A DNA stretch of 64,000 bases, taken from positions 1,922,001 through 1,986,000 of the forward strand of contig NZ_CP155449.1 in assembly GCF_040518285.1 (NCBI RefSeq), in the 5' to 3' direction. The translations under genes were made by a program, and so were the position numbers. The notes under the pieces were generated by a model. The model was not told the origin of the DNA and made no database searches. It saw nothing but the letters and a program-made list of their open reading frames with translations. Source of the stretch: Knoellia sp. S7-12 (GTDB lineage Bacteria > Actinomycetota > Actinomycetes > Actinomycetales > Dermatophilaceae). This document shows, in pieces, positions 16,856-63,790 of this stretch. Positions within the stretch are counted from its first letter, which is position 1; every line of letters begins with the position of its first letter.

Positions 16856-18436
16856 TCAGGCCGTGGAGGTGGCGGATTCGGGGGCCTCGGTGTCCCGGTC
16901 ACGCTCGGGCCACATGATCGAGGTGATCTCCCGGGCGAGGTCCGGGCCGAGCGCGCCCCAGCCGGGCTCGTAGCCGTAGACCTCGCGCAACGGTGTGCCT
17001 GATCGGTTGCCGTCCAGGATCTCGACAGCGTCCGCATCGATGAGCCCGGGATGGGCCACCCCGCAGGCTTCCGACACCTTGAGCAGATCCCGCCGGAGCG
17101 TCTGCAGATAGTTGGCCAGTCGTACCGACTTGAGCGTGGGGTCGAGACCGTGTGCCAGCCACGGGTCCTGGGTCGCGACGCCGGTGGGGCAGTGGTCGGT
17201 GTGGCACTTCTGCGCCTGGATGCACCCGAGCGCCAGCATCGGCTCTCGTGCAACGTTGACCATGTCGACACCCAGTGCGAAAGCGACGAGCGCGTTGTCG
17301 GGCAGGCCAAGCTTGCCGCTGCCGATGAACGCGACGTCGTCGGTCAGACCGGCTTGGGCGAACGTCGAATAGACCCGGGCAAAGCCGATCCGGAACGGCA
17401 GGGCGACGTTGTCGGTGAAGACGAGCGGCGCCGCACCCGTGCCACCCTCACCGCCGTCGACGGTGATGAAATCCACCCCTCGCGTGCGCCCGGACATCTG
17501 CTGCGCGAGCTCGGTCCAGAAGTCCATCTCGCCGACGGCCGACTTGATCCCGACGGGCAGGCCGGTCTCGTCAGCGATGAGCTCGACCCAGTCGAGCATG
17601 CTGTCGACGCTGTCGAATTCGGCGTGCCGTGACGGACTGACACAGTCCTCACCCTTGGGTATGCCGCGGATCCGGCTGATCTCGTCGGTGATCTTCGCGG
17701 CGGGCAGGACCCCACCGAGACCGGGTTTGGCACCCTGGCTCAACTTGATCTCGATCGTCTTGACCGGGGCAGTCTGGACGAGGTCCTTGAGCCGGGCGAG
17801 GTCAAAACGACCTTGGTTGTCGCGGCAGCCAAAATAGGCGGTGCCGATCTGGAGGATGAGGTCGCCACCCTTGCGGTGATGGTCGGACAGGCCGCCCTCG
17901 CCGGTGTTGTGGAGGGCGCCTGCGAGAGCGACTCCTCGGTTCATCGCCTCGATGGCGTTGCCCGACAGTGAGCCGAAGCTCATCGCCGACACGTTGACGA
18001 CCGAACCCGGGCGGAAGGCGTGGCGGCGACCGCGCGGCGCTCCGAGCACCTTGGCGGCCGGCAGTTCGACCTTCTCGTCATGGTGCCCGTGCGCGACGGC
18101 CGTCGACGGGGCCATCGGCGAGAAGGTGCGGTGCTTGACGATCGGGTAGTTCTCGAGGTGCTCGATGTCGTTGTCGGTGCCGAAGCCGACGTAGTTGTTC
18201 TCGAGCTTGCTGCTGGCATAGACCCAGGAGCGCTGGTCGCGGGAGAACGGTCGCTCGGCGTCGTTGCCCGTGATGATGTATTGCCGCAGCTCAGGCCCCA
18301 CCTTCTCGAGCAGGTAGCGCAGGTTCGCGACGACCGGAAAGTTGCGTTTGAGCGAGTGCTTCTTCTGGGTGAGGTCGCGAACCGCCACTCCTGCGAGCCC
18401 GACGACCGTGGCACCAATGAGCGACTTCGCTTTCAT
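16856..18436 (-). CDS. FMN-binding glutamate-synthase-like protein
   Basis: 526 aa from ATG 18436 (MKAKSLIGATVVG). The body matches the central/FMN domain of glutamate synthase in its stand-alone form: VNVSAMSFGSLS, NTGEGGLSDHH, KLSQGAKPGLGG, FITVDGGEGGTGAAP and a late C-x5-C-x4-C cluster (CIQAQKCHTDHC) that in GltB binds a 3Fe-4S centre. No glutaminase domain is present, so it is not a complete glutamate synthase. Proteins of this type are annotated as FMN-binding glutamate synthase family and their substrate is generally unproven. The N-terminus has one hydrophobic segment that could anchor it to the membrane. Divergent from the intradiol dioxygenase at 18568, with 131 bp between starts. 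Confidence 0.85.
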   Translation of the reverse strand: MKAKSLIGATVVGLAGVAVRDLTQKKHSLKRNFPVVANLRYLLEKVGPELRQYIITGNDAERPFSRDQRSWVYASSKLENNYVGFGTDNDIEHLENYPIVKHRTFSPMAPSTAVAHGHHDEKVELPAAKVLGAPRGRRHAFRPGSVVNVSAMSFGSLSGNAIEAMNRGVALAGALHNTGEGGLSDHHRKGGDLILQIGTAYFGCRDNQGRFDLARLKDLVQTAPVKTIEIKLSQGAKPGLGGVLPAAKITDEISRIRGIPKGEDCVSPSRHAEFDSVDSMLDWVELIADETGLPVGIKSAVGEMDFWTELAQQMSGRTRGVDFITVDGGEGGTGAAPLVFTDNVALPFRIGFARVYSTFAQAGLTDDVAFIGSGKLGLPDNALVAFALGVDMVNVAREPMLALGCIQAQKCHTDHCPTGVATQDPWLAHGLDPTLKSVRLANYLQTLRRDLLKVSEACGVAHPGLIDADAVEILDGNRSGTPLREVYGYEPGWGALGPDLAREITSIMWPERDRDTEAPESATSTA

Positions 18437-18567
18437 GTCTCGCAGTCTGCCGTGCGGCGCCGGGTTCCGACGGTGGGTCGCTCGACAGAGATGGTGGGGG
18501 GAGCGCTCACAGGCGCCGCACAGCCGACTCATGGTTCGCGGTAGGCCAGAGCCGCCACAGTGGAGTC

Positions 18568-19443
18568 ATGAGCGAACGTCAGATCCCCAACCAGCCCCAC
18601 CCGAACCACGACCGCGGCCTCGAGTTCGACGTCGCCACCCTGCTCGGACGACGCAAGGCCCTCGGCCTCTTCGGCGGAGCCGGCCTCCTTGCCCTCGCGG
18701 GGTGCGCCGATGCCACGACCGGGTCAACCGGCACGGCAGCTTCGTCCACCGGCTCGGCGTCCGCGTCCGCGTCGGCTTCGAGCACGGCTTCCGCGAGCGC
18801 CTCTGCGACCACGGTGGACACCGAGGTGCCCGACGAGACCGGCGGCCCATACCCCGGTGACGGCAGCAACGGGGCCAACGTCCTCGACGACGCGGGCATC
18901 ATCCGCTCCGACATCACACGTTCGATCGGCACGTCAACGACGAAGGCCGAAGGCGTTCCCCTCACCATCAACCTCACGGTCACCGACAGTGCCAACGGGT
19001 ATGCCGCCATGGAGGGCGTCGCCGTCTATCTCTGGCACTGCGACCGGGAGGGCAACTACTCGATGTACTCCGAGGGTGTCGAGAACGAGAACTACCTGCG
19101 CGGGGTGCAACCGACGAACGCCAACGGCACGGCGACGTTCACGAGCATCTTCCCCGCGGCATACATGGGTCGTTGGCCGCACATCCACTTCGAGGTCTAC
19201 AAGTCCACGGCCGAGGCGACGAGCAGCGGTCAGATCGTCAAGACCTCGCAGCTCGCCCTGCCCGAGGCCGTGTGCAAGACGGTCTATGCGTCCTCCGGCT
19301 ACGAGCAGAGTGTGCGCAACATGTCGCAGACATCCCTCACCTCGGACATGGTCTTCGGTGACGACGGCGGCATCCACCAGCTCGCGACAGTGACGGGCGA
19401 TGCGGCGAGCGGCTACGTCGCGAACCTCACGATCGGGGTCTGA
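18568..19443 (+). CDS. Tat-exported lipoprotein, intradiol ring-cleavage dioxygenase
   Basis: 291 aa. The N-terminus carries a twin-arginine motif (GRRKALGLFGG) and a lipobox (LALAGC), so it is predicted to be folded in the cytoplasm, exported by Tat and lipidated. A low-complexity Ser/Ala/Thr linker (~50 residues) follows. The catalytic domain resembles protocatechuate/catechol intradiol dioxygenases: YLWHCDREGNYSMYS, then ENYLRGVQPTNANG, then YMGRWPHIHFEVY. These contain candidate Tyr and His ligands for non-haem Fe(III). Such extracytoplasmic dioxygenase-like lipoproteins are known in actinobacteria, but their aromatic substrate is unclear. Start ATG 18568 is the first in frame and gives a complete Tat signal. 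Confidence 0.85.
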   Translation: MSERQIPNQPHPNHDRGLEFDVATLLGRRKALGLFGGAGLLALAGCADATTGSTGTAASSTGSASASASASSTASASASATTVDTEVPDETGGPYPGDGSNGANVLDDAGIIRSDITRSIGTSTTKAEGVPLTINLTVTDSANGYAAMEGVAVYLWHCDREGNYSMYSEGVENENYLRGVQPTNANGTATFTSIFPAAYMGRWPHIHFEVYKSTAEATSSGQIVKTSQLALPEAVCKTVYASSGYEQSVRNMSQTSLTSDMVFGDDGGIHQLATVTGDAASGYVANLTIGV

Positions 19444-19470
19444 GCGGGGAGTGGCTCTAGACTCCGACCC

Positions 19471-20067: not shown

Positions 20068-20228
20068 GTCGCGGCCTTCGAGTCGTGGAATTCGGGCGTC
20101 AGCGTCCTGCCGGATAGACTCACCGGCGAATCTCAGCGCCAGACTTCCGTGCCGCCTGCGTGACGCCTCAGCGCGCCCTGCGCACACGGCATACCGAATC
20201 TTTTCAATCTCATCGAAAGTGAACCCAC

Positions 20229-21268: not shown

Positions 21269-21340
21269 TGGGCTGTGCTCCGACCCAGCATTTCGGCGTA
21301 TGCCGTGTGCTCGCCTCCCGCTTCGTCCCCCGCGTCGCGG

Positions 21341-25996: not shown

Positions 25997-27155
25997 ACAC
26001 CACAGTCCATACCCGCGAACTGGCAGTGCTCGTCCTCGAGGACGGTCGCACCTTCACCGGGCGCTCCTACGGCAGCCGTGGGGAGACGGTCGGCGAGGCC
26101 GTCTTCTGCACAGCGATGACCGGCTATCAGGAGACGCTGACCGATCCGAGCTATCACCGCCAGGTCGTCGTCATGACGGCCCCGCACGTGGGGAACACCG
26201 GCTGGAACGACGAGGACGACGAGTCCTCGCGCATCTGGGTCGCCGGCTACGTCGTGCGCGACCCTGCCCTGCGGCCCTCGAACTGGCGCTCGCAGCGCAG
26301 CCTCGAGGACGAGCTCGTGGCCCAGGGCGTCGTGGGCATCTGCGACATCGACACCCGCGCCCTCACGCGCCACCTGCGTGAGCGTGGAGCCATGCGAGTC
26401 GGCATCTTCTCCGGGGACGAGGCGCGTATGCCGTCGCACGAGCTCGTCGAGCGCGTCACCGCCGCGCCCCAGATGGCGGGTGCCTCCCTCGCCCAAGAGG
26501 TCAGCACCAAAGAGCCCTACGTCGTGCAGGCGGTGGGGGAGAAGCGCTTCACCGTCGCCGCAATCGACCTCGGCATCAAGGCGATGACGCCGCAGTGCAT
26601 GGCCGAGCGCGGTATCGAGGTCCACGTCCTCCCCGCGACCACGACTTTCGCGCAGATCGAGGCGCTCAGCCCCGACGGTGTCTTCTTCAGCAACGGCCCG
26701 GGAGACCCGTCGAGCGCCGACCACGAAGTTGGAGTCCTGCGCGAGGTGCTCGCTGCCGGGATCCCGTTCTTCGGGATCTGCTTCGGCAACCAGCTGTTCG
26801 GCCGGGCGTTGGGCTTCGGCACCTTCAAGCTTAAGTACGGCCACCGCGGCATCAACCAGCCGGTCATGGACCGCACGACGGGCAAGGTCGAGGTCACCGC
26901 GCACAACCACGGCTTCGCGGTCGATGCTCCCCTCGACGAGGACAGCCATACCGAGTTCGGGCAGGCGCGGGTCTCGCACGTGTGCCTCAACGACGACGTC
27001 GTCGAAGGCCTCGAACTCCATGATGCGAACTCCGGTGTCCTCAGGGCGTTCTCAGTCCAGTACCACCCGGAAGCAGCAGCGGGACCGCACGATGCGGCCT
27101 ATCTGTTTGATCGGTTTGTTGAACTTCTCTCGAGCAACACGAAGGTGGGCGCCTG

Positions 27156-27156: not shown

Positions 27157-30469
<3,313 letters not shown>

Positions 30470-42944: not shown

Positions 42945-44006
42945 ATGGGTGAATTCATCGACGCCGGTGGGATTCGACAGCACCTTCGCGTGTGGGGGCC
43001 AGAGGACGGCACACCGGTCCTGTTGATCCACGGCAACTGCTCGAGCGGCGGTTTCTTTGAGCCGTTCGTCCGGAACGCGCTCGACGGTGGCTCGGGATCG
43101 TGGCGGATCGTCGCCCCGGACCTTCGCGGGTTCGGCGAGACCGAGACAGCACCGGTCGACGCGACGCGCGGGCTGCGGGACTTTGCCGACGACCTCGAGG
43201 CGCTGCTGGGTGCCGAGTGAGTGTTCGGATCCGACGCGCCCATCGTGGTGGTGGGCCACTCCATGGGATGCGGCGTTGCGATGCAGTGGACCGTCGATCA
43301 CCCCGAGCGCTGTGCCGGGCTGTTGCTCACGGCTCCGCTGTCGCCCTACGGTTTCGGCGGAACGCGAGACGTGAACGGCACCGCGACCACGGACGACTTC
43401 GCCGGCACGGGCGGTGGCACGGTCAACCCCGACTTCGTCGCGCGGGTCGCGGCGGGCGACAGGAGCAGTGACGAGCCGACCAGTCCACGCAACGTCATGC
43501 GGACGGCATACATCGCAGATCCCGACGTCCTCGGAGCCGACGAGGACGCGATGCTCGACACGGTCCTCTCGACGGCGACCGGCGACCACAACTACCCGGG
43601 CGACTCGGTGCCGAGCGCACACTGGCCGATGGTCGGTCCGGGGACGCGCGGCGTGGCCAACGCGATGTCACCGCGCTGGTTCTCGGTGGCCGAGGATCTG
43701 TTGGCCCTGGACCCCAAGCCGCCGGTGGAGTGGGTGCGCGGCACTGCCGACGTCATCGTCAGTGACACTTCCCTGTTCGACCTGGCCCACCTCGGCCAAC
43801 TCGGGGTCGTGCCCGGATGGCCCGGTGCAGATGCCTGTCCGCCGCAGCCGATGGTGGGGCAGACGCGGGCGGTCCTCGAGCGCTACGCCGCGGCCGGTGG
43901 CACCTTCACGGAGACGACGCTGGAGGGGTGTGGGCACTCGGCGCACCTCGAGCGGCCGGACGCCGTGCGTGAGGCGCTGGAACGGCTCACTGCAGAGCGG
44001 CCCTGA
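42945..44006 (+). pseudogene. Alpha/beta hydrolase interrupted by an in-frame TGA
   Basis: One 354-codon frame from ATG 42945, with a TGA at 43218-43220 (codon 92). The first piece ends LRGFGETETAP...ALLGAE. The second begins with GTG at 43221 as VFGSDAPIVVVGHSMGCG. In homologues Trp would be expected at this point, so TGG to TGA is the simplest cause. The nucleophile GHSMGCG (Ser) and the final His (CGHSAHLERPD) are in the second piece. The stop-start TGAGTG may allow re-initiation, giving two polypeptides, or the gene may be dead or misread. Ends 20 bp inside the convergent TetR gene. Confidence 0.8.
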
Positions 44007-45519: not shown

Positions 45520-46497
45520 ATGAGGCTGGTCTTCGCCGGCACCCCCGAGACCGCCGTGCCTGCCCTCGAGGCGCTGCTCGCCTCCTCGCACGAGGTCGTC
45601 GCTGTCCTCACGCGGCCCGACGCACGCGCCGGTCGCGGTCGCACGCTCCACCCGTCGCCGGTGAAGGCGCTCGCGGTCGAGCGGGAGATCGAGGTGCTCA
45701 CGCCGGTCTCACCGAGGGATCCCGAGTTCCAGGCTCGCCTGCGCGAGATCGCCCCCGATGCCTGCCCGGTCGTTGCGTATGGGGCGCTCCTGCCGCGCGA
45801 CGTCCTCGACATCCCGACCCACGGTTGGATCAACCTTCACTTCTCGGTGCTCCCGGCGTGGCGCGGTGCCGCGCCCGTCCAGCGCGCCATCATGGCCGGC
45901 GATGAGGCCACCGGTGCGACGACGTTCGTCATCGAGGAGGGACTCGACACCGGACCGGTGCTGGGCCTCATGACCGAGACGATCCGGTCCGACGACACCT
46001 CCGGCACCCTCCTTGACCGGCTCGCCCAGGCAGGCGCTGGCCTGCTCGTCGCGACCATGGACGGCCTCGAGAGCGGCGACCTCCACGCGGTGCCGCAACC
46101 TGGCGAGGGTGTCTCGCATGCTGCGAAGCTGACGACCGCCGATGCGGAGATCTCGTGGAGCACCCCTGCGTATGCCGTGAATCGTCACGTCCGCGGGTGC
46201 ACGCCGGCTCCTGGCGCCTGGACGACGTTCCGCGACGAGCGCCTCGGGGTCGGCCCCGTGGTGGCCGCGGGTGGTGATGCACTTGACGCCCTTGACGCGC
46301 GGGAGTCCACGCAACCGTTGGCACCGGGGGAGATCCACGTCACCAAGAAGGCTGTCCACGTCGGGACTGCGTCGGGTGTGGTGACACTCGGTGAAGTGCG
46401 TCCTCAGGGCAAGAAGCCCATGGCGGCCGCCGACTGGGCCCGCGGGGTCAGGATCGACGTGGGTGAGGTGCTCGGTCGCGCCACTACGCTGACCTGA
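45520..46497 (+). CDS. fmt: Methionyl-tRNA formyltransferase
   Basis: 325 aa. [20 protein letters not shown], the formyl-donor site [21 protein letters not shown] (with Asn, His) and DTGPVLG, then the C-terminal tRNA-binding OB domain. Formylates initiator Met-tRNA. rsmB starts at its stop (TGATG). Confidence 0.96.
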
Positions 46498-47999
46498 TGC
46501 CCGCACCCGACTCCTCCCAGCCCCGACGCCCCCAAGGCCGGTCGGGACCACGCGGTAGCCAGCGCTCGCTCCAGAAGCCGAGCGAGCGGGCCAAGCACGC
46601 CGAACCGGCGCGCCTGGCGGCATACACACTGCTCCGGGCCGTCGACGAGGGTGCCTACGCGAACCTCGAGTTCCCCGCGATCATCCGACGCCACCGACTC
46701 GATTCGCGGGACGCGGCGTTCGCGACCGAGCTCGCCTTCGGGACCCTGCGGATGCAGGGCTTCTATGACGCGGTCATCGAGCGTGCGGCCGGTCGGCCCA
46801 CCAGCAAGATCGACAACGGGGTGCTCGACGTCCTGCGGCTCGGTGCGCACCAGCTGCTCGGCATGCGCGTCCCGTCGCACGCCGCCGCCGACCAGACCGT
46901 TGGTCTTGCGCGCACCGTGAGTGGCGCCGGTGCCAGCGGCTTCGTCAACGCAGTGATGCGCCGGGTCAGTGAGCGGACGCGCGAGGAGTGGGTGACCGAG
47001 GTTGTGCCAGAGGGTGGGTCGACGGCCGCGCTGGCCGTGGAGTACTCCCACCCCGAGTGGGTGGTCAGCGCCATGCGGGGGGCCCTGCTCTCAGGCGGGC
47101 GCGCCACCGCCGAGACCGTCGACGGTGAGCTGCGCGAGCTGCTCGACAGCGACAACACCCCCGCCAAGGTCAGCCTCGTCGCCCGCCCGGGTCTCGCCAC
47201 GGTCGAAGAACTCGTCGATGCCGGCGCCACAGCCAGCGAGACCTCACCCTTTGGTGCCGTCCTCGACCACGGCGAGCCGGGGGCCATCGCCGCGATCCGT
47301 GATCGCCGGGCCGCCGTGCAGGACGAGGGGTCGCAGCTGCTGGCTGCCGCTCTCGCCCTGGCTCCTGTCGACCCTGATGTGCCGACCCGCTGGCTCGACC
47401 TCTGTGCAGGGCCGGGAGGCAAGAGCGGTGTGCTCGGCGCGCTCGCCGTCGAGGCCGGAGCCGACCTCGTGGCCGTCGAGATCAGCGACCACCGAGCCGA
47501 CCTCGTGCGTTCCACACTCGAACCCGTCATTGCTCTGGCCAACGCTGCCGGACGGCGCATCGAGGTGCGCACCGCTGACGGTCGCGAGGTCGGAGAAGCC
47601 GAGCCGGCGGCATACGGACGCGTTCTCGTCGATGCGCCCTGCACCGGGCTCGGCGCGCTGCGTCGGCGACCCGAGGCCCGGTGGCGTCGTCAGCCGAGTG
47701 ATCTCGTCCAGCTCGGCCCCCTGCAGCGCGACCTGCTGCGCAGTGCGCTCGACGCCGTCGCTCCGGGTGGGCTCGTCGGCTATGCCACGTGCAGCCCGCA
47801 CCCGGCCGAGACGACGTTCGTGGTCCGCGACGTGCTCAAGAAGCGTGACGACATCGAGGTCGTCGACGCGCGCGAACTGTTCCGCAACGCCTCCGGCGAC
47901 GTGCTCCACGACCTCGGAGACGGCCCGGAAGTGCAGCTGTGGCCGCACGTCCACGGCACCGACGCGATGTTCTTCACGCTGCTGCGCAAGAAGGCCTGA
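46497..47999 (+). CDS. rsmB: 16S rRNA (cytosine-C5) methyltransferase RsmB
   Basis: 500 aa. A basic, Ser-rich tail (~40 residues), a NusB-like N-terminal domain (RLAAYTLLRAVDEGAYANL) and a SAM methyltransferase with WLDLCAGPGGKSGVLGA. The two conserved Cys are in VDAPCTGLGALRR and YATCSPHPAETT; the second is the likely nucleophile. Methylates C967 of 16S rRNA. Overlaps fmt by one base. Confidence 0.94.
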   Translation: MPAPDSSQPRRPQGRSGPRGSQRSLQKPSERAKHAEPARLAAYTLLRAVDEGAYANLEFPAIIRRHRLDSRDAAFATELAFGTLRMQGFYDAVIERAAGRPTSKIDNGVLDVLRLGAHQLLGMRVPSHAAADQTVGLARTVSGAGASGFVNAVMRRVSERTREEWVTEVVPEGGSTAALAVEYSHPEWVVSAMRGALLSGGRATAETVDGELRELLDSDNTPAKVSLVARPGLATVEELVDAGATASETSPFGAVLDHGEPGAIAAIRDRRAAVQDEGSQLLAAALALAPVDPDVPTRWLDLCAGPGGKSGVLGALAVEAGADLVAVEISDHRADLVRSTLEPVIALANAAGRRIEVRTADGREVGEAEPAAYGRVLVDAPCTGLGALRRRPEARWRRQPSDLVQLGPLQRDLLRSALDAVAPGGLVGYATCSPHPAETTFVVRDVLKKRDDIEVVDARELFRNASGDVLHDLGDGPEVQLWPHVHGTDAMFFTLLRKKA

Positions 48000-49506: not shown

Positions 49507-49616
49507 CGACAGCTAAGACCTTTCGGGGTCGCGCCGTCCGGCGTCATGCGTCGACGGCACCCGCTGCACGTCCCCCGGAGCTCGACTTCACGGTCTCGAG
49601 CACGAGGGCAGGACGC

Positions 49617-50642
49617 ATGCAGGAGCGCAGCACGACCGACGCACAGTGGATGCTGCGCGCGCTGGGCCTCGCGACCAACGGTCCCGAGGCTGACGCCAAT
49701 CCGCGCGTCGGCTGTGTTCTCGTTGACCCCGACGGGGCTCTCGTCGCCGAGGGCTGGCACCACGGTGCTGGCACGGACCACGCCGAAGCCGCCACCCTCG
49801 CGGCCGCAGGGGAGCGCGCGGCCGGTTGCACGGCATACGTCACGCTTGAGCCCTGCAACCACACCGGACGCACGTCACCGTGTTCGCGCGCCTTGGCCGC
49901 GGCTGGTGTTGCCCGTGTCGTGTATGCCGTGAGCGACCCGAACGCTCCGGCTGCCGGTGGCGCTGCCTGGCTGGCGACGCAGGGCGTCGCCGTCGAGGGC
50001 GGCGTGCTCGAAGCGGATGGTGAGGCACTCAACCGAAGCTGGCTGCATAGCGTCCGCGCGGGCCGGCCCTGGGTCACGTGGAAGGTTGCGACGACACTCG
50101 ACGGTCGCAGCGCGGCCGCCGACGGCACGAGCCAGTGGATCACCGGCCCCGAGGCACGAGCCGACGTCCACGACCAGCGGGCCCGCAGCGGGGCGATCGT
50201 CGTCGGCACCGGCACTGCCCTCACCGACAACCCGCAACTCACCGCTCGTCGCCCCGACGGCACGCTGCACGATCGCCAGCCGTTGCGCGTCGTCATGGGT
50301 CAGCGCGACCTGCCCGCTGATGCCCACCTCTTCGACGATGCGGCCGAGACCGTGCACCTGCGCACCCGAAGCCCTCGCGAGGTCCTGGCCCATTTGGCAG
50401 GGCGCAAGATCCACCGCGTCTGGCTCGAGGGAGGCCCGACGGTCGCCGCCGCCTTCATGGCCGACCACCTCGTCGACGAGATCGTCGTCTACGTCGCGCC
50501 CGTCCTGCTCGGGCGAGGTCGACCATCCGTGAGCGACCTCGGAATCACGACGATGGCCGACGCGCTGCGTCTCGAACCCACTGACACCCGGATCGTCGGT
50601 CACGACATCCGCATCACCGCCACCTTGGAGGAGTCCCGCTGA
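49617..50642 (+). CDS. ribD: Riboflavin biosynthesis deaminase/reductase
   Basis: 341 aa. The N-terminal zinc deaminase has HAEAATLAAAGERA and PCNHTGRTSPCSRAL (PC-x-x-x-G-x-x-x-PC). The C-terminal NADPH reductase has VTWKVATTLDGRSAAADGTSQWIT and VWLEGGPTVAAAFM. It catalyses two steps after GTP cyclohydrolase II. Start ATG 49617 (MQERSTTDAQ). First gene under the FMN riboswitch. Confidence 0.95.
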   Translation: MQERSTTDAQWMLRALGLATNGPEADANPRVGCVLVDPDGALVAEGWHHGAGTDHAEAATLAAAGERAAGCTAYVTLEPCNHTGRTSPCSRALAAAGVARVVYAVSDPNAPAAGGAAWLATQGVAVEGGVLEADGEALNRSWLHSVRAGRPWVTWKVATTLDGRSAAADGTSQWITGPEARADVHDQRARSGAIVVGTGTALTDNPQLTARRPDGTLHDRQPLRVVMGQRDLPADAHLFDDAAETVHLRTRSPREVLAHLAGRKIHRVWLEGGPTVAAAFMADHLVDEIVVYVAPVLLGRGRPSVSDLGITTMADALRLEPTDTRIVGHDIRITATLEESR

Positions 50643-51286: not shown

Positions 51287-51984
51287 ACTGGCTCGAGCGT
51301 CTCTTCGAGGCCCAGCTGACGATCGGCAGCTCGCACATCCTGTGGCGCGAGATCGTCGGCAACGTCTTCGGCTTCGCCTCCGCGATCGGTGGCATGCGGC
51401 GCCGCGTGTGGGCGTGGCCAGCCGGCATCATCGGCAATGTCCTGCTCTTCACGGTCTTCTTCGGCGTGGCCTTCGCCAACCCGCAGCATCAGACCCTCTA
51501 TGGCCAGGCCGGCCGTCAGGTGTTCTTCATCATCACGAGCGTCTATGGCTGGTGGCTCTGGCAGCAGCATCGCAAGGTGCGCGGCGACGACTCGCCGGCC
51601 ATCACGCCGCGCTGGGCCACGGTGCGTGAGCGCGCGGCCTACGTCGGGGTCTGGGCCGCTGGGCTCGTCGTCGGCCAGTGGATCTTCGCGACGATCGGCG
51701 CCGAATGGCCCGCGCCTCGCTGGTACTTCTGGTGCGACGCCTGGATCTTCGTCGGCTCGATGCTCGCGACCTATGCCATGGCGCGCGGCTGGAACGACTT
51801 CTGGCTCATGTGGATCGCCGTGGATCTTGTCGGTGTTCCACTCCTCTGGCACTCGAAGTTCTATCCGTCCGCAGTCCTGTATGCCGTCTACGGCGCCTTG
51901 GTGCTCTACGGCTTCACGGTGTGGCTCAAGGCTTCTCGCGAAGAGCGAGACCCTGAGCGCGAGTTGGCGGAGATGCGCTCATGA
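51283..51984 (+). CDS. ribM: PnuC-family transporter, probable riboflavin importer RibM (PnuX)
   Basis: 233 aa with about six to seven hydrophobic helices. WREIVGNVFGFASAIGGMRRRVWAWPAGIIGN and FFIITSVYGWWLWQ match the PnuC fold, including the WxW motif near YGWW. PnuC homologues import nicotinamide riboside, but members encoded inside FMN-riboswitch operons (RibM/PnuX of Corynebacterium and Streptomyces) import riboflavin. The order ribE-ribM-ribBA-ribH matches the Streptomyces davaonensis operon, so riboflavin is the better call. Overlaps both neighbours by 4 nt. Confidence 0.85.
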   Translation: MNWLERLFEAQLTIGSSHILWREIVGNVFGFASAIGGMRRRVWAWPAGIIGNVLLFTVFFGVAFANPQHQTLYGQAGRQVFFIITSVYGWWLWQQHRKVRGDDSPAITPRWATVRERAAYVGVWAAGLVVGQWIFATIGAEWPAPRWYFWCDAWIFVGSMLATYAMARGWNDFWLMWIAVDLVGVPLLWHSKFYPSAVLYAVYGALVLYGFTVWLKASREERDPERELAEMRS

Positions 51985-53210
51985 GCCAGCTCTCGACGAT
52001 CGAGGAGGCACTGGAGGCCTTGCGTGCTGGCCGTCCGGTGCTGGTCACTGACGACGAGGACCGAGAGAACGAGGGCGACGTCATCCTGGCCGCGCAGAGC
52101 CTGACCGACGAGTGGATGGCGTGGACCATCCGCCACTCGTCGGGCTACGTCTGCGCCCCCATGCCCGATGCCGTCGCCGACCGTCTGGACCTGCCGCTCA
52201 TGGTGAGGGACAACGCTGACCGGTTGCGGACGGCATACACGATCACGGTCGACGCGGCGCAAGGCGTGACGACGGGGATCAGCGCGGCGGATCGCGCTCA
52301 CACGATCCGGACACTCTCGTCGCAGGAGGCGAACGCCGACAGCTTCGTGCGCCCCGGTCACGTCGTGCCGCTGCGCGCGCGTGCCGGGGGAGTGCTCGTG
52401 CGCCGCGGTCACACAGAGGCTGCCGTGGACCTGTGCCGCCTCGCAGGACTTGAGCCGGTGGGCGCCATCGCCGAGCTGACTCACGACGACGGCACGATGA
52501 TGCGACTGCCCGCTGTCCTCGACCTCGGAGCACAGCACGACCTGCCCGTCATCACCATCGAGCAGCTCGTCGCGCACCGTCAGCGCCACGACCGGGTCAC
52601 CCGTCACGCGACGACGACGCTGCCGACAGCGGACGGCACCTTCACCGCTCACGCCTACCGCGACACCCTCACCGGCGACGAGCACCTCGCCCTCGTCAGC
52701 CCACTCGGGCTCGGTGACGGCTCGGTCCTCACCCGTCTCCACAGCGAGTGCCTCACCGGCGACGTCTTCGGTTCGGCACGTTGCGACTGCGGCCCGCAGC
52801 TGCGTCGCGCCCAGAGCCGGGTCGCCCGCGAGGGAGGCGTTGTCGTCTACGTCCGTGGTCACGAGGGTCGCGGGGTTGGCCTTGCTGACAAGATCGCGGC
52901 GTATGCCGTGCAGGACAGCGGGATTGACACCGTCGCCGCGCAGGTGGAGCTGGGTCTGCCCATTGACGCCCGCGACTACTCGGCGGCCACGGCGATCCTC
53001 CACGACCTCGGTGTGACCGCTGTCCGGCTGCTCACCAACAACCCCGACAAGGTCGAAGCCGTCCGGGCCGCAGGCATCGACATCACGACGGTCGAGCGGC
53101 TCCAGGTCGCCCCCGTCGCGACGAACGCCGCCTATCTGCGGACCAAGCGCGACCGTCTCGGGCACGACCTCGTCCTCGACTCCCACGACTCCTCGGAGGC
53201 AAGCGCATGA
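51981..53210 (+). CDS. ribBA: DHBP synthase / GTP cyclohydrolase II
   Basis: 409 aa fusion. RibB half: [34 protein letters not shown] and [10 protein letters not shown]. RibA half: [21 protein letters not shown] with the three Zn-binding Cys, [15 protein letters not shown] and the catalytic region [10 protein letters not shown]. Supplies both branch substrates for riboflavin. Starts at ATG 51981. Confidence 0.95.
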
Positions 53211-53689: not shown

Positions 53690-53949
53690 AGACCTTCGAC
53701 GCGCTGTTCGCCGAGCTCACCGACAAGGCCGCGACCCGTCCGGAGGGTTCGCGCACCGTCGCGGAGCTCGATGCGGGCGTGCATGCCATCGGCAAGAAGA
53801 TCGTCGAGGAGGCCGCCGAAGTCTGGATGGCCGCCGAGCACGAGAGCGACGAGCGCGCAGCTGAAGAGATCTCCCAGCTGCTCTATCACCTGCAGGTCCT
53901 CATGGTCGCCAAGGGTCTGACCCTCGATGACGTCTACACCCACCTCTGA
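53686..53949 (+). CDS. hisE: Phosphoribosyl-ATP pyrophosphatase
   Basis: 87 aa from GTG 53686, overlapping ribH. All-alpha MazG-like fold with [19 protein letters not shown] and [14 protein letters not shown] carrying the metal-binding Glu residues. Second step of histidine synthesis. hisG follows after 14 bp. Confidence 0.93.
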
Positions 53950-53963
53950 GACTCGAGCCCTTC

Positions 53964-54809
53964 ATGCTGCGCATTGCCGTTCCCAACAAGGGTTCTCTTG
54001 CCGACCCCGCCGCCGAGATGCTGCGCGAAGCGGGCTACCGCACGCGCCGTGACTCCAAGGAGCTCGTCGTCAACGACGAGGCCAACGGGGTCGAGCTGTT
54101 CTATCTGCGACCGCGCGACATCGCGGTCTATGTCGGCTCCGGCACCGTCGACTGCGGCATCACCGGCCGCGACCTGCTCCTCGACTCGGGCAGTGCCGCC
54201 ACCGAGGTGATGACGCTCGGCTTCGGAGGATCGACCTTCCGGTATGCCGGTCGGCCGGGTTCCGTGTCCGCCGTTGCGGACATCGCGGGTCGCCGGGTGG
54301 CCACGAGCTATCAGGGACTCGTCGAGAAGCACCTTGCCGAGCAGGGTGTGCAGGCCGAGGTCGTGCGCCTCGATGGTGCGGTGGAGACGGCGATCACCCT
54401 GGGCGTCGCCGATGTCATCGCCGACGTGGTCGAGACCGGTGCGACATTGCGCAGCCAGGGACTCGAGGTCTTCGGTGACCCGATCCTGCGCAGCGAGGCC
54501 GTGCTCATTCGCCGCGATGGCAGCCACGAGGACTCGGGGATCGAGGTGCTGCACCGCCGCATGCTCGGTGTCGTGACCGCCCGCCACTACGTGATGCTCG
54601 ACTACGACGTGCCGGCCACGCTCGTCGACGAGGCCTGCGCGATCACACCCGGCCTGGAGTCCCCGACGGTCTCGAACCTGCAGAACCCGGAGTGGAAGGC
54701 CGTGCGCGCCATGGTCCCCAGGTCGGTGACGAACCAGATCATGGACCAGCTCTGGGAGATGGGGGCGCGAGCCATCCTCGTCACCGACATCGCTGCGTGC
54801 CGCCTGTGA
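53964..54809 (+). CDS. hisG: ATP phosphoribosyltransferase, long form
   Basis: 281 aa. MLRIAVPNKGSLADPAAEML, VGSGTVDCGITGRDLLLD, the PRPP loop region DVIADVVETGATLRSQGLEV and a C-terminal regulatory ACT-like domain (~75 residues) that binds histidine. The long form is feedback-inhibited and does not need HisZ. First step of histidine synthesis. It overlaps the PH-like gene by 4 nt. Confidence 0.95.
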   Translation: MLRIAVPNKGSLADPAAEMLREAGYRTRRDSKELVVNDEANGVELFYLRPRDIAVYVGSGTVDCGITGRDLLLDSGSAATEVMTLGFGGSTFRYAGRPGSVSAVADIAGRRVATSYQGLVEKHLAEQGVQAEVVRLDGAVETAITLGVADVIADVVETGATLRSQGLEVFGDPILRSEAVLIRRDGSHEDSGIEVLHRRMLGVVTARHYVMLDYDVPATLVDEACAITPGLESPTVSNLQNPEWKAVRAMVPRSVTNQIMDQLWEMGARAILVTDIAACRL

Positions 54810-55697: not shown

Positions 55698-57470
55698 TCA
55701 GCGGACGGGGGGTCGGCTGGGTTTGAGGGTCAGGGTCGCGGCGAGCTGGACGAGCATGAGCAGCGCCAGCACCAACCAGATCGCCGAGTAGCCACCGGTG
55801 AGGTCTCGCACCGCGCCCATCGTGGTGGGCCCCATCGACGCCACCGAGTAGGACATGAGGAACGCCATCGCGGTGAACCGAGCAGCGGCGGCCGGCGACA
55901 CGGCATACCGGACGAGCAGGACGAGCCCGATCGCGAAGGACGCGCCCTGGGCGGCACCGAGCAGCAGCGCCCACACCCAGGGCGCGGCATCGGGGGCGGC
56001 CCACACGCCCGTCTGGCCAGCCAGGCCGAACAGACCGGCGCCCACGAGCGGGATCCGCCAGTCGCCCACGCGGTCGGTGATCGCCGGACCGACGAGCCCC
56101 GAGACGAGCTGGGCGCCGGTGAAGACCGACAGCAAGAGGCCAGCGTCACGGGCGTCCCATCCGTGGTCGACATAGGTGGGTGAGAGCCAGGCCAGCGTCG
56201 AGTAGAACTGCCAGGACTGGATGGCGAGAAAGGCCGCGACGAGCCAGGCGGTGGTGCTGCGCCAAGGGAGGCCGTGGCTGGTGTCAGCCGGGTGCTGGTC
56301 GTGGTCGCCACCGCGGTGCACCGCCCGGTCGACGGGGATCCAGAACACGAGACCGACCACCGCGACGAGTCCCCAGAACCCGAGCGCGAGGTCCCAGTCG
56401 CCCAGCGCACCGGCCAACGGGACCGAGACGGCGGCGGCCAGTCCGGCGCCACCCATCATCGCGAGCATCTGCACTCCGGTCGCCAGACCCGAGCGGCCAG
56501 TGGGGAAGAAGCCCTTGACCATGCCCGGCAGCAGGGTCCCGGCGAGCGCCATCCCGGCGCCGGCGCAGAGGGTGCCGAGATAGAGGGCGACGAGCTCATG
56601 CCCGAACCCGCGCACGAGGTTGCCGACGGCCACCGCCACCATGGCGAGCGAGATGCACCGGGCCACGCCGAGACGCAGCCCCAACCGGGCCGCCGCCGGT
56701 GCGAGCAGGCCCATGCAGAGCACCGGGAGTGTCGTGAGGACACCGAGCCAGACCGAGCTCAGGCCGAGGTCTCCACGGATCCGCGGCAGCAGCGGTGGCA
56801 GCGACGTCATGAGGGTCCGCATGCTCAGCGACACCGCGACCACCCCGATGACGACGAGAGCCAGTGATGGTCCGCGTGGGGCGTCGACCGCAGGTTCGGC
56901 ACCCACCCTGCCGGTGTCGACGCGCAGGTCGGCCTCTGCGCGCCCGGGCGAGACGGCATAGAGCTGGCGTTCCTGGTCCGCCCACACGTCCCAGTGCGAC
57001 GCGAACACCTCGCCGTCGCGGGCGATCGCGCGGTCGTGACGCTGTTCGCACGGCGCCTCGACCCAGACCCCGGCCGTCGCGATGCCCGCCGCGATCGCGA
57101 AGGCCCCGACCCCTTCGAGCACGACGAGCTTCGCCTGCGGCACTGCGAGGTCGGGTCCGCGAACGCCCACCTCCCAGTTCCAGGTCGGGTGACTGGCCGG
57201 CTCACCCCGCAACCACGCGTCCACCATGGTCGCGCGCGCCAGGTCCACCGTCTCGAGCAGTCCTGTCCACCCCTGGTGCATGTCGTCCACGTGCAGGATG
57301 AGCGCGTCGAGCTCGTCCCCGAGGTCGGCAGCGAGCGTGGTCTTGCCCGATCCACTGGGCCCGTCGATGGCGATGAGGGTGACGGAGCCGCAGCGCGCAC
57401 CCCGTTCCGCAGCGAGTGCTCGAACCTCGGTCGCGAGATCGCCCACGTCGGTCATCGCCTCCATCGCCAC
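55698..57470 (-). CDS. P-loop kinase fused to an MFS transporter
   Basis: 590 aa in one frame. Residues ~1-200 are a P-loop (d)NTP/uridine-kinase-like domain: IAIDGPSGSGKTTLAADL (Walker A at 37-45) and LHVDDMHQGWTGL as the acidic strand, followed by a lid-like helix. Residues ~205-590 form a 12-helix MFS transporter of the CynX/NimT-like type (VAVSLSMRTLMTSLPPLL, GMVKGFFPTGRSGLATG, SYSVASMGPTTMGAV). The two parts are normally separate proteins. There is no stop codon or re-start between them (near VGAEPAVDAPRGPS), so a real fusion is likely unless a base is missing. Possible role: uptake coupled to phosphorylation of a nucleoside or related compound (inference). Start is GTG 57470; ATG 57464 and 57455 follow. 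Confidence 0.75.
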   Translation of the reverse strand: MAMEAMTDVGDLATEVRALAAERGARCGSVTLIAIDGPSGSGKTTLAADLGDELDALILHVDDMHQGWTGLLETVDLARATMVDAWLRGEPASHPTWNWEVGVRGPDLAVPQAKLVVLEGVGAFAIAAGIATAGVWVEAPCEQRHDRAIARDGEVFASHWDVWADQERQLYAVSPGRAEADLRVDTGRVGAEPAVDAPRGPSLALVVIGVVAVSLSMRTLMTSLPPLLPRIRGDLGLSSVWLGVLTTLPVLCMGLLAPAAARLGLRLGVARCISLAMVAVAVGNLVRGFGHELVALYLGTLCAGAGMALAGTLLPGMVKGFFPTGRSGLATGVQMLAMMGGAGLAAAVSVPLAGALGDWDLALGFWGLVAVVGLVFWIPVDRAVHRGGDHDQHPADTSHGLPWRSTTAWLVAAFLAIQSWQFYSTLAWLSPTYVDHGWDARDAGLLLSVFTGAQLVSGLVGPAITDRVGDWRIPLVGAGLFGLAGQTGVWAAPDAAPWVWALLLGAAQGASFAIGLVLLVRYAVSPAAAARFTAMAFLMSYSVASMGPTTMGAVRDLTGGYSAIWLVLALLMLVQLAATLTLKPSRPPVR

Positions 57471-57480: not shown

Positions 57481-58647
57481 CTAATTCGGGGTCGACTCGT
57501 CCTCGTCAGCGCCGTCGCCCTCGCCGTCGCCCTCGTCAGTGGGTCGACCCGACACCGGGATGTAGCCGCCCGCCTCGTCCAGCGGCACGCCGGTGAGGAG
57601 CAGCAGGTCGACGACCATCGACCTCACCTGTGCGCGGATGACCTCGCCGGAGAGTCCCGAGTCGGGGTCGATCGCGGCACTTCGTTCGCCGAGTCGTCGC
57701 AGCCCGGCCCGCGCCGCCACCGGTGCGTGCCGCTCGTGGAGCTCGCGAGAGATGTCGGCGCACGACCGCGCCAGGTCATCGATCAGGGCGACGTATGCCG
57801 CCGGGACGACTTCGTGACGTTTGGTCCCGACCGCGGCCCGCCGGACGAGCACGCGCAGGTTGCGGATGCTGCGGTCGAGCGGCTCGAGCAGGTCCGAGAT
57901 CGCCTGGGCGCCGGGCAGGTGCCGGCGGCGAAACGGTGAGAGCCGCACGACCGCGACCCCCTCGGAGGCGAGGGACTGCAGCTCGACGAGCATCGCCTCG
58001 GACGCGCGTGCCCGCTCGAGCGTGCGAGTGGCGAGGGCCGTGTCGTCGGTCCGGATGACTCGGGCCGTCTCGTTGAGGATGGCGGCGATCTCGTCGACGA
58101 CCCGCGCAGCCTGCTGGCGGGGTCGATGCAGGCCCGTCGCAGGAACGAGCGCACTGATGATGAGGGCGACGCTGCCACCGATGACGGCGTCGAGCCAGCG
58201 GGTGAACGCCTGACCCGGTGCGGCCACGAGCGTCGTGATGATGGCCGCCTGGACCCCCGCCTGGATCGTGATGAGCAGTCCTGCCCCGAAGAGCGAGGCG
58301 ATGGTCATGGCGAGCATGATGACGACGAGCAGTTGGATGACCCCGCTGCCGAAGAGGTGGGCGAAGATGTCGCCGATGAGGACGCCGATCGCGACGCCGA
58401 TCATCACCTCGACGGCGCGACGCACCCGCTGCCCGTAGGACAGGCCGAGCGAGATGATCGCCGTCACGGGGGCGAAGAAGGGCAATGGGTGGTCGAAGAC
58501 GTCCTTCGCGAGCCACCATGCGAGCGCCGCCCCGATCCCGCACTGGACGATGAAGACGAACCGGCCGGACAGGCGGTCGGTGCGGATCCGCGCCTCGGTG
58601 CGCGAGCGCGCGGCGACGCGGGCAGGCAGTTCGGAGGCGGACGGCAT
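57481..58647 (-). CDS. FUSC-family membrane protein (aromatic acid exporter type)
   Basis: 388 aa from ATG 58647. About six N-terminal transmembrane helices (FVFIVQCGIGAALAWWLA, FFAPVTAIISLGLSYG, MIGVAIGVLIGDIFAHLF and LLVVIMLAMTIASLFGAG). A long cytoplasmic helical domain and an acidic low-complexity tail follow. FUSC/ArAE proteins export aromatic carboxylates or fusaric-acid-like compounds; substrate here unknown. Ten bases before the kinase-MFS gene, likely one operon, and divergent from hisF. Confidence 0.8.
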   Translation of the reverse strand: MPSASELPARVAARSRTEARIRTDRLSGRFVFIVQCGIGAALAWWLAKDVFDHPLPFFAPVTAIISLGLSYGQRVRRAVEVMIGVAIGVLIGDIFAHLFGSGVIQLLVVIMLAMTIASLFGAGLLITIQAGVQAAIITTLVAAPGQAFTRWLDAVIGGSVALIISALVPATGLHRPRQQAARVVDEIAAILNETARVIRTDDTALATRTLERARASEAMLVELQSLASEGVAVVRLSPFRRRHLPGAQAISDLLEPLDRSIRNLRVLVRRAAVGTKRHEVVPAAYVALIDDLARSCADISRELHERHAPVAARAGLRRLGERSAAIDPDSGLSGEVIRAQVRSMVVDLLLLTGVPLDEAGGYIPVSGRPTDEGDGEGDGADEDESTPN

Positions 58648-58682
58648 ACACCGCATCATCCCCTGCCGGATAACCTGCGGAC

Positions 58683-59456: not shown

Positions 59457-60104
59457 TCAGAGTCCGAAGCGGGACGTCTCGAAGCGGGCCATGGCGGCCT
59501 CGTCGCCCGTCAGGTCGATCTGTGCGACCTGGCGACGCCCGTATGCCGTGAGCAACAGTTCCAGCGGCGCTCCCGACACGTGGACGGTGACGTCGCCGCC
59601 ACTCACGGTGAGCGCACCACGGCCGGGCGCGTGCAGCTCGACGCCGTCCGGAACCTTGCGGAAGAGGAGCCGACCCATGCGGGAGAGAAGGGCCCAGGCC
59701 GCGGCTTCGAGGTGCGCAGTGGGCTCGCGACGCGGGCCCGGTGTCCCGTCGCCGCGCAGCACGTCCTCGTGGTGGACGACCATCTCGGCGAGGTTGACCG
59801 CGTTGTCTATGGGGGCCATCTGCGCCGGGTGCCACCTCGGTGGGCCGGAGCGGACCGCTTCGACGAGGGCGGGCCATGGCTGGGCCGCGACCTTGGCCTG
59901 TTCGCGCTCGGTGCGGTCCGCCAGAAAGGGGACCCAGATGCCCGAGGCGAGGTCGGGGCGACCCTCACGGATGACGAGGTGCGCCGCGAGATCGCGGGTG
60001 GTCCACGGCATACACAGCGTGGGAGCGTCCGGGCCCACCAGTTCGAAGGTCTCGCACAGGTCGAGGCGCTCCCTGCGTGCAATGTTCACCGAGGCTTGGG
60101 TCAT
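59457..60104 (-). CDS. TIGR03085-type DinB-fold metal-binding protein
   Basis: 215 aa from ATG 60104. The conserved opening [22 protein letters not shown] and [17 protein letters not shown] match the TIGR03085 / mycothiol-dependent maleylpyruvate isomerase-like group. Metal-binding His residues are in AAHLV and VHHEDVLRG. Members of this fold act as mycothiol- or metal-dependent transferases; the substrate is unknown. Divergent from hisI with 36 bp between starts. Confidence 0.83.
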
Positions 60105-60545: not shown

Positions 60546-62110
60546 GCACGAGTGAGCAGCCGCAGCCCGCCCCTGATCTCAGTTTCGGCACGACCTGGCC
60601 CTCGCTCGACGTCTTCTCCGTCCTTGCTGAAGGGCGACGGGTCATCCCCGTCGTCCGACGCCTCATGGCCGACGCCGAGACACCCGTCGGGCTCTATCGC
60701 AAGCTCGCCCAGAATCGTCCCGGGACCTTCCTCCTCGAGTCGGCCGAACATGGCGGCGTGTGGTCGCGCTACTCCATCGTCGGGGTCGCCAGTCACGCGA
60801 CGCTGACCGAGAAGGATGGCGAGGTGCACTGGGTCGGCGAACCTCCGGTCGGTGCCCCCACCACCGGGCTCGCCACCGAGGCGCTGCGCGACACTGTCGC
60901 CGCCCTCGCGACCGACCCGATCCCGGGCCTGCCTCCCCTCACCGGGGGCATGGTCGGGATGATCTCCTACGACGCCGTGCGTCGCTGGGAGAAGGTGCCG
61001 TCCACGACCCCTGACGTCCTGCACATCCCCGAGATCGCGATGATGCTCGCCACCGACCTTGCCGTCCTCGACCACGCCGATGGTTCGGTCCTGCTCATCG
61101 CCAACGCCGTGAACTACGACGCCACGGACGAACGCGTCGAGGACGCCTGGGCCGACGCAGTCGCGCGGCTCGACACGATGACCCGCGACCTCGGTGCGAG
61201 CGCCGAGAGCACCGTGTCCTTCGTGGAGACCGAAGTGGTCGATCAGGCTCTGGACACGGTCACCGCGAACCTCACGCGTGACGAGTACGAGGCGATGGTC
61301 GAGAGCGCCAAGGAGGACATTCGCGCCGGCGAGGTCTTCCAGGTCGTTCTCTCACAACGGTTCTCGATGCCCTGCCCCGCCGACGCCCTCGACGTCTACC
61401 GCGCTCTGCGCGTCGGCAACCCCAGCCCCTACATGTACCTGTTCCGGTTCACGCGACCGGACGGCACGGCATACGACGTCGTGGGTAGTTCGCCGGAGGC
61501 GCTCGTCAAGGTGACCGGCACCCAGGCCATCACGCATCCCATTGCCGGGTCACGGCCACGTGGCAAGTCGCCCGAGGATGACGTGCGCCTGGCCGAGGAC
61601 CTTCTCGCCGATCCCAAGGAACGGTCCGAGCACGTGATGCTCGTCGACCTCGGACGCAACGACCTCGGACGCGTCTGCCGAGCGGGGACGGTTGACGTCG
61701 TCGAGTTCATGGACGTACGCCGATACAGCCATGTCATGCACATCGAGTCCACGGTCGTGGGGGAGCTGCGCCCGGGCGTGCGGGCCTATGACGTCCTCGT
61801 GTCCACCTTCCCTGCCGGGACGCTGTCGGGGGCGCCGAAGCCGCGCGCGCTCGCCCTCATCGAGGGCTACGAGCCGTCGCGACGTGGCGTCTACGGCGGC
61901 GTCGTCGGCTATCTCGATTTCCACGGAGACCTCGACATGGCGATCGCCATCCGCACCGCCCTCATCGACGGTGCGGTGGCCCATGTCCAGGCAGGAGCCG
62001 GCATCGTCGCCGATTCTGTCCCGCGCAACGAGCACGACGAGTGCATCGCCAAGGCGACCGCGGTGCTGCGTGCCGTCGCGACGGCATCGGCGTTGCGGAG
62101 AGTGCCATGA
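60542..62110 (+). CDS. trpE: Anthranilate synthase component I
   Basis: 522 aa from GTG 60542. [18 protein letters not shown] contains the Ser-rich tryptophan-feedback motif region. The chorismate-binding core has [57 protein letters not shown] and [11 protein letters not shown]. Makes anthranilate with TrpG (not in this window). No leader peptide with Trp codons is visible, since the gene overlaps hisI. Confidence 0.95.
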
Positions 62111-62679: not shown

Positions 62680-62718
62680 CAGAATGACGCGCGAACTCAC
62701 ATCTTCCGGGAGGCACCC

Positions 62719-62955
62719 ATGGCTGAGCACGACGACGACGACAACCACGGCAACAGCGTGGCCGCTTGGGTCATGGTCGGTCTTGTCCTCCTCGGGTCGT
62801 TCATCATGTCGCTCGCGTTCATCTTCCCCAGCGTCGCGCTCTTCGTCGTCGGTGTCGTCGTGGTGATCGCGGGTCTCGTCGCGGGCAAGCTGATGGCCCT
62901 CGCGGGCTATGGCATCAACGGCGACGTCGCACGCAGCGACACCAACCTCTCCTGA
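62719..62955 (+). CDS. HGxxPAAW-type small membrane protein
   Basis: 78 aa. The signature region reads [20 protein letters not shown]: the family's HGxxPAAW motif is present except that Pro is Val. Two transmembrane helices follow ([19 protein letters not shown] and [19 protein letters not shown]), then the tail [10 protein letters not shown]. Found beside trpC in many actinobacteria; function unknown. Start ATG 62719 after GGGAGG. Confidence 0.85.
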
Positions 62956-62965
62956 GCCGGCGTCC

Positions 62966-63790
62966 ATGACCACCGTGCTCGACGCCATCGTCGCCGGTGT
63001 GCGCGAGGACCTCGCCGTCCGTGCCGAGCGGGTCAGCCTGGGCGACCTCGAACGTCGGGTGGGTGAGGTCCCCGGAGCGATCGACGCCGAGGAACGACTG
63101 CGCGCCGACGGCCTCTCACTCATCGCCGAGGTCAAGCGGGCCAGCCCCAGCAAGGGTGCCCTGGCCGACATCCCTGATCCGGCTTCCCTGGCGCGCACCT
63201 ATGCCGAGGCCGGCGCCACCGCCATCAGCGTCCTCACCGAGCAGCGCCGCTTCGGTGGCAGCCTCGACGATCTCGACGCAGTGCGGTCAGCAGTCACCAT
63301 CCCGGTGCTGCGCAAGGACTTCATGGTCACCGACTACCAGCTGTGGGAGGCCCGGGCCCACGGCGCGGACATCATCCTGCTCATCGTCGCGTCGCTCACC
63401 GATGAGGAGCTCTTCCGGATGCACAGCCTCGCCCATGACCTCGGCATGACCGCCCTCGTCGAGGTCCACGACGAGGGTGAGACCCAGCGCGCCGTCGACG
63501 CCGGTGCCCGCGTCATCGGCGTGAACGCCCGCAACCTCAAGACCCTCGACATCCACACCGACACCTTCTCGCGTCTCGTGCCGCTCATCCCGCCGGGTGT
63601 CGTGACCGTGGCCGAGTCCGGAATCCGTGGGGCCCAGGACGCAGCCATGTATGCCGCCCAGGGCGCGCAGGCCGTGCTCGTCGGTGAGACGCTCGTGCGA
63701 GGCACGGACCCGAGTGCCGCGGTGCGCGACATCATCGCGGCCGGTGCCGCCAGCCCCATGGGCACCGTGGGCACTGAGGGCACTGCATGA
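62966..63790 (+). CDS. trpC: Indole-3-glycerol phosphate synthase
   Basis: 274 aa from ATG 62966. [58 protein letters not shown] and [14 protein letters not shown] with catalytic Lys/Glu positions. TIM barrel. Closes the indole ring. Overlaps trpB by 4 nt. Confidence 0.96.

Follow-up and report, generated by a model that had tools for sequence, protein, structure and literature searches.

The octamer GTATGCCG is enriched far above chance throughout a single-contig genome of 4,163,720 bases (G000), where it lacks replication polarity, and a few relatives carry in abundance a second spelling, GGATGCCG, that differs from it by one letter. We characterized GTATGCCG in a 64-kb stretch of that genome (C1:1922001-1986000, in full; hereafter the window), genome-wide and among related genomes, where its sites are largely kept in position within the genus. 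Considering these properties beside those of known systems, we regard an uptake-signal-like self-recognition motif in Gram-positive bacteria as the likeliest explanation of GTATGCCG, at even odds.

Within the window, the initial annotation had described about 30 copies in some 46 kb, 15 per orientation, against about 2 predicted from composition, and none in the first 17.6 kb. Exact matching returned 30 copies, 15 per strand, all within 17659-63656 and none in 1-17658, compared with a mean of 0.98 (maximum 4) in 100 dinucleotide shuffles and a third-order Markov expectation of 1.5, with GTATGCCG ranking first among over-represented octamers there. The 7-mer GTATGCC likewise behaved as described, continuing with G in 30/30 cases and then mostly with T (20/30) or C (8/30). 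Beyond the window, the whole genome of 4.16 Mb holds 2805 copies (1406 forward, 1399 reverse) versus 79 (33 forward, 46 reverse) for a reversed-letter control, and a sample of 464 kb (the window plus 20 spaced stretches) contains 271 copies (0.6 per kb) versus 12 by the third-order Markov model, such that in this sample the enrichment withstood the third-order Markov comparison proposed to refute it.

This enrichment is a DNA-level signal, neither a protein nor a codon effect. Genes were called with a simple purpose-made script that misses some genes (comEA among them), and in 484 kb of genome it placed 209 of 287 copies in called genes and 78 outside (96 kb), the latter figure including some genic sites because of those misses. 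Shuffling synonymous codons within genes reduced the 209 genic copies to 23, 17 and 25 in three runs, which bears out the earlier argument that codon-pair bias alone is insufficient. The Tyr-Ala and Ala-Tyr frames hold 23 of 28 genic sites in the window and 161 of 209 in the 484 kb, with the window's other 5 spread over three further frames and all six frames used in the larger sample; use in several frames had been claimed, as had an Ile codon in a glutamate-synthase-like gene, where the protein at site 17659 indeed reads Gly-Ile-Pro. Two window sites (20187 and 21298) fall outside gene calls, again as claimed, and short gaps (20-600 bp) between called genes carry 37 copies in 26.6 kb (1.39 per kb; 24 tandem, 7 divergent, 6 convergent), with no preference for terminators seen.

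The genome-wide sites have no replication polarity, in agreement with the equal orientation first noted. Assigning each of the 20 spaced stretches to the first or second half of the contig (with a DnaA-like motif near contig position 625 and the terminus assumed at half), we counted 68 forward and 64 reverse copies in the first half and 62 and 47 in the second, such that 115 of 241 share one replication orientation. The spacing near 1.5 kb noted earlier proved to be a mean only, as gaps between copies are random (coefficient of variation 1.05, null 1.02 +/- 0.06). Octamer edges are sharp, with T preferred as the next base (45%), then G, so that GTATGCCG is often GTATGCCGTG; this genome also shows a mild preference for A at -8 and -9 and T at +18, and in G131 and G191 the bases after GTATGCCG are C then G.

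To evaluate conservation, we compared the Tad region among five congeneric genomes (117 kb of pairwise alignments, at 78.8% identity) in directional, gap-free comparisons with 4 facing gaps set aside. Although these comparisons share genomes and hence are not independent, GTATGCCG was unchanged in 146/175 versus 4158/14195 (29%) for permuted-letter octamers, and in 44/56 versus 1088/4074 for pairs with G000 alone. Similarly, 8/9 sites in window positions 46100-55000 were unchanged in G006 and 8/9 in G004, which have 3 and 1 additional sites, respectively, in their counterpart regions. Orthologous sites that differ show several kinds of substitution (GTAGGCCG, GTGTGCCG, GCATGCCG and others) rather than one precursor. 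Sites are therefore largely held in place within the genus, where examined, by selection or a conversion-like force.

Among genomes, the motif is rich but patchy in one family (f1, 186 genomes), which we take to be the GTDB family Dermatophilaceae. It is abundant in all nine members of the own genus, at 1971 to 3277 copies per genome. By hand count, 107/186 family genomes have at least 394 copies; their distribution is patchy across genera, and they exceed the reversed-letter control about 2.5-fold (G023) to 70-fold (G146). Contrasts also occur within genera: g25 has genomes with 19, 1062 and 3681 copies; in g68, G141 has 50 and the other 30 genomes at least 394; and in g52, G065 (89% complete) has 37 and the other four 1251 to 1660. 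Outside the family, the highest count in 22 genomes from other families of the order was 167 (its control 184), and in a phylum sample of 396 genomes the 392 outside the family had at most 386 copies, that maximum being in a 7.5-Mb genome with a control of 176; the clearest excess outside the family among genomes with more than 100 copies was 161 versus 30 (G478). At the level of single loci, the named best matches of the window's carbamoyl-phosphate synthase (records of the same or very near genomes possibly being left out) were Allobranchiibius (82%) and Terrabacter tumescens (81%), which belong to Dermacoccaceae and Intrasporangiaceae; in the T. tumescens locus 23 kb contain 8 copies against 3 of the reversed-letter control, and the Allobranchiibius locus has none.

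We sampled motif-poor genomes for other over-represented octamers, revealing GGATGCCG as a firm second spelling with 2099-4480 copies in 7/186 family genomes (next highest 1336): 3949 in G033 (g26), 3816 and 3838 in g17, and 4480, 3619, 2195 and 2099 in the four g54 genomes. Sampled G033 sequence has 114 copies in called genes versus 23 to 25 expected, and 67 outside versus 5.2. GTATGCCG itself is low in G033 (40), g17 (235, 272), G082 (361) and G083 (288), and G084 and G085 (g54) hold both words, with 1217 and 1189 copies of GTATGCCG. A Tad ATPase tree (32 rows, one gene) places G024 and G033, representing the two GGATGCCG genera sampled, as sisters (98/91) within a group that also holds GTATGCCG-rich G028, G023 and G032 (three genera) and motif-poor G035; this grouping with GTATGCCG-rich genera suggests that GGATGCCG took the place of GTATGCCG in the G024/G033 lineage. 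Aligning 7 kb of G082 and G084, we found no position at which the two species carried different firm words, such that the switch itself is not seen site by site; 3/9 GGATGCCG sites of G082 were kept and 0/1 GTATGCCG.

Other words are weaker. GTACGNCG, a candidate in G118, G122, G030, G059 and Allobranchiibius, is mildly raised in Streptomyces too and more so in Nocardioides (loci L081, L082, L090, L094 and L099: 1.9- to 2.8-fold in called genes, 1.4- to 4.4-fold outside), and we therefore set it aside as a firm dialect. Leads only are CGATGCGG (G117), CCCCTTCG (G097/G098, G125), GTAGACCG (G065) and GTACGCCC (G031); CCCCTTCG was counted in loci L126, L127, L257-L259, L149, L150, L260 and L261, giving 32 versus 9.8 expected in called genes and 21 versus 2.5 between them for g63, and 49 versus 11.5 and 28 versus 4.2 for g67. 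Where 12 GTATGCCG sites of G119 align with G118, the latter shows GTACGACG four times, GTACGCCG four times and GTATGCCG never, a pattern that is suggestive only, as the GTACGCCG changes could be plain reversion to the common Tyr codon. G072 has moderate CGGTGACG, the raised words of G207 lie almost solely outside called genes and represent a local repeat, and small samples of G009, G187, G067, G086, G127, G035, G058, G141, G113, G114 and G026 gave no clear new word.

GTATGCCG is sparse or absent in two stretches presumed to be acquired. No copy lies in the window's first 17.6 kb, which has lower G+C in part and an ApeA-like HEPN gene. In the presumed insert between the two halves of a split Flp pilin gene, one sampled part of 7 kb has no copy and another of 20 kb has 3, versus 0.6 per kb in the genome sample. 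The density in presumed islands is thus depleted rather than equal to that elsewhere, as the initial annotation had expected. The ApeA N-terminal and Apea-like HEPN domains, at window positions 13176-14786, mark a candidate anti-phage gene within the motif-free island. Separately, an approximately 50-base palindromic repeat at 49261-49318, just before a flavin mononucleotide (FMN) riboswitch (49380-49508), has dispersed relatives elsewhere in the genome.

Features of the window and split pilin gene (window coordinates unless a contig is given)
Feature	Position	Strand	Basis
Stretch without any GTATGCCG, probable acquired island	1..17658		G+C 0.61-0.63 from 4 kb to 16 kb
GTATGCCG site (glutamate-synthase-like gene)	17659..17666	+	exact match
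GTATGCCG site	18999..19006	+	exact match
GTATGCCG site	19157..19164	-	exact match
GTATGCCG site, between called genes	20187..20194	-	exact match, gene calls
GTATGCCG site, between called genes	21298..21305	+	exact match, gene calls
GTATGCCG site	26426..26433	+	exact match
GTATGCCG site, carB-like gene	28666..28673	+	exact match
GTATGCCG site, carB-like gene	29236..29243	-	exact match
GTATGCCG site, carB-like gene	30001..30008	-	exact match
GTATGCCG site	35144..35151	+	exact match
GTATGCCG site	37987..37994	-	exact match
GTATGCCG site, priA-like gene	41309..41316	+	exact match
GTATGCCG site, priA-like gene	41581..41588	-	exact match
GTATGCCG site	43504..43511	-	exact match
GTATGCCG site, kept in G006 and G004	46170..46177	+	exact match, alignment
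GTATGCCG site, kept in G006 and G004	46618..46625	-	exact match, alignment
GTATGCCG site, kept in G006; G004 has GTAGGCCG	47608..47615	-	exact match, alignment
GTATGCCG site, kept in G006 and G004	49831..49838	-	exact match, alignment
GTATGCCG site, kept in G006 and G004	49922..49929	+	exact match, alignment
GTATGCCG site, kept in G004 but not G006	51879..51886	+	exact match, alignment
GTATGCCG site, kept in G006 and G004	52231..52238	-	exact match, alignment
GTATGCCG site, kept in G006 and G004	52901..52908	+	exact match, alignment
GTATGCCG site, kept in G006 and G004	54242..54249	+	exact match, alignment
GTATGCCG site	55901..55908	-	exact match
GTATGCCG site	57793..57800	+	exact match
GTATGCCG site	58642..58649	-	exact match
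GTATGCCG site	59541..59548	+	exact match
GTATGCCG site	60006..60013	-	exact match
GTATGCCG site	61467..61474	-	exact match
GTATGCCG site	63649..63656	+	exact match
Flp pilin halves	G000 C1:680895-680963 (= L242:12895-12963) and C1:842354-842452		split gene

Abundance, strand balance, restriction to the core, conservation and spellings (with two genomes holding both) form a pattern as in the neisserial DNA uptake sequence (DUS), and the uptake interpretation first offered for the window is strengthened by the lineage-specific spellings and site conservation, a regular spacing near 1.5 kb being unsupported. A DNA-binding part of the competence apparatus, here a Tad/Flp-type pilus feeding ComEA and ComEC, would prefer octamer-bearing DNA; DNA of kin would then be taken up and recombined more often, keeping old sites and spreading new ones, and a shift in reader specificity would lead to sites being respelled over time, as with GGATGCCG in g17, g26 and g54. 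We infer here a competence protein as reader, reading of double-stranded DNA, and uptake bias as the force. The fuller proposal, that a Tad/Flp competence pilus in the family around Terrabacter reads a lineage-specific octamer in a Gram-positive self-DNA uptake system with dialects, the switch between GTATGCCG and GGATGCCG being caught within g54 where two species have both, is plausible, and we would stop short of calling it probable.

The search for competence genes proposed earlier found comEA (SLBB and helix-hairpin-helix domains) and comEC adjacent in this genome, together with Tad genes. ComEC is present in 180/186 family genomes, a DUF4244 Flp pilin in 172/186, and a Tad-type ATPase (helicase-secretion neighbourhood family) matched in 58/58 relatives, 52 above the curated cut-off. 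In Micrococcus luteus natural transformation is described as requiring tad genes, and tad together with comEA/comEC as frequent in actinobacteria (PMC4322843). As candidate discriminating genes ComEC and the Flp pilin were dropped, being near-universal and giving no contrast, and type IV pilus co-occurrence with the motif was dropped as well, with pilM in 0/9 genus genomes, 2/36 family genomes (G027, G032) and 13/58 overall. The predicted comEA start codon lies within a GTATGCCG copy (L128:12649), and the pilin gene itself carries the motif, its conserved residues Glu-Tyr-Ala-Val being encoded GAG TAT GCC GTG (L242:12933).

Several observations weigh against the uptake interpretation. We identified no receptor, and no uptake experiment on members of the family emerged from the literature searched. 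Motif-poor genomes carry ComEC and the pilin just as often, so presence of the machinery does not predict the motif and only allows for an uptake role. In this genome the Flp pilin gene (DUF4244) is broken into halves lying 161 kb apart, such that its own pilus may now be non-functional. The distant A/T flank preferences were not seen in the three other GTATGCCG genera sampled (G131, G191, G137). Genomes with DUS or with the uptake signal sequence (USS) of Pasteurellaceae show both near-matches and inverted pairs; here, no close-neighbour excess was seen (10 copies within 60 bp versus 9.0 expected), and one-mismatch variants showed no overall excess (331 versus 374 by codon shuffling, an expectation inflated by TAT codons that the motif itself contributes), with single variants somewhat raised (GTAGGCCG 39 versus 26, GTGTGCCG 40 versus 24). 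Titles and beginnings of abstracts in open-licence literature gave no uptake sequence for this group, though one may be in print elsewhere, and on the octamer only a Ralstonia typing paper.

On the pilin gene itself, two or three weaker pilin matches in each of G001, G134, G137, G143 and G193 are possibly similar splits, and a competence pilin gene could possibly serve as an integration hotspot. No integrase-box pattern was found in the 7 kb seen between the halves, which share no identical run of at least 10 bases.

Of the alternatives, a binding site for an abundant protein of the nucleoid or of chromosome organisation, maintained because chromosome structure is under selection, would account for the genome-wide, two-strand, genic and intergenic distribution and strong site conservation, and we regard it as unlikely though the best of the rivals: spacing is random, and different words between genera, two words in G084/G085, and a near-lack of the motif in individual species within a genus (G118, G141, and G065 at 89% complete) are harder to explain. 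Slightly less probable is a methylation-linked word, in which an orphan methyltransferase, perhaps with a mismatch-repair bias, would create and keep the octamer and other spellings would correspond to other methyltransferases. Such a link is described for the highly iterated palindrome HIP1 and alternate HIPs of cyanobacteria, which co-occur with methyltransferases that match them (PMC4390886). Gain and loss of methyltransferases would fit the patchy distribution among genera; the octamer is, however, non-palindromic, and its differing orthologous sites point to no single precursor. We find improbable a Chi-like recombination hotspot read by AdnAB, which would suit a core-enriched octamer poor in foreign DNA (Chi words also vary between bacteria) but not the absence of replication orientation; for Chi as read by RecBCD, RecC is absent from 9/9 genus genomes and 18/21 motif-rich genomes (AdnAB was not searched for), being present in 18/58 overall and in 3/12 motif-rich genomes of other genera (G019, G032, G034). 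A codon-pair or composition artefact, which the preponderance of Tyr-Ala and Ala-Tyr pairs might suggest, has practically no chance, as codon shuffling leaves 8 to 12 times fewer copies, between-gene gaps are denser than genes, the reversed-letter control is rare, and some family members lack the motif.

Returning to the uptake interpretation, we compared GTATGCCG with known systems, among which RecBCD-Chi, KOPS, HIP1 and REP readings each fail on tested features. DUS occur on both strands and are core-enriched, and GTATGCCG shares with that class copies far above chance, both orientations without polarity, depletion in presumed acquired DNA, and lineage-specific spellings (GGATGCCG firmly, other words more weakly). 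Its 2805 copies fall within the 943 to 5918 per genome described for neisserial DUS dialects, which likewise have thousands of copies, lineage-specific spellings, and one genome with two, Simonsiella muelleri holding two dialects in near-equal numbers (PMC3630211). GTATGCCG differs in its Gram-positive, high-G+C host, 8-base core and inferred uptake role. Since pilM was not found in the genus, we do not expect a ComP-type type IV minor pilin (no search was made for ComP itself) and the ATGCCGT shared with neisserial DUS, raised by the initial annotation, carries no weight; we therefore liken GTATGCCG to DUS in function and do not class it as neisserial DUS, whose reader is such a pilin.

Pasteurellacean USS are alike in density and in combining a short core with slight A/T preferences roughly a helical turn from it, as seen for GTATGCCG in this genome; those flanks were not seen in three other genera sampled, and there is no overall near-match excess. 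HIP1 and alternate HIPs are similarly very over-represented octamers with other words in some lineages (PMC4390886). Those words are palindromes tied to methyltransferases, whereas GTATGCCG is not its own reverse complement. Unlike FtsK-orienting polar sequences (KOPS) and architecture-imparting sequences (AIMS), GTATGCCG has no strand skew along replichores, and unlike repetitive extragenic palindromes (REP) and bacterial interspersed mosaic elements (BIME), which are longer, extragenic and palindromic, it is an 8-base unit mostly in called genes. Chi is also a core-enriched octamer; GTATGCCG lacks its polarity, the genus lacks RecC, and over-representation is stronger. Pasteurellaceae and Neisseriaceae that are naturally competent have been described as having short uptake sequences (PMC7811141). 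If a motif of this kind were confirmed in Actinomycetota, the origin and switching of uptake signals, the ability of a Tad/Flp pilus to read sequence, and the way in which spelling isolates species would become testable. Independently of what reads them, about 2800 sites per genome, for the most part conserved in the genus where we compared them, point to a sequence-specific system that we could match to no known one.

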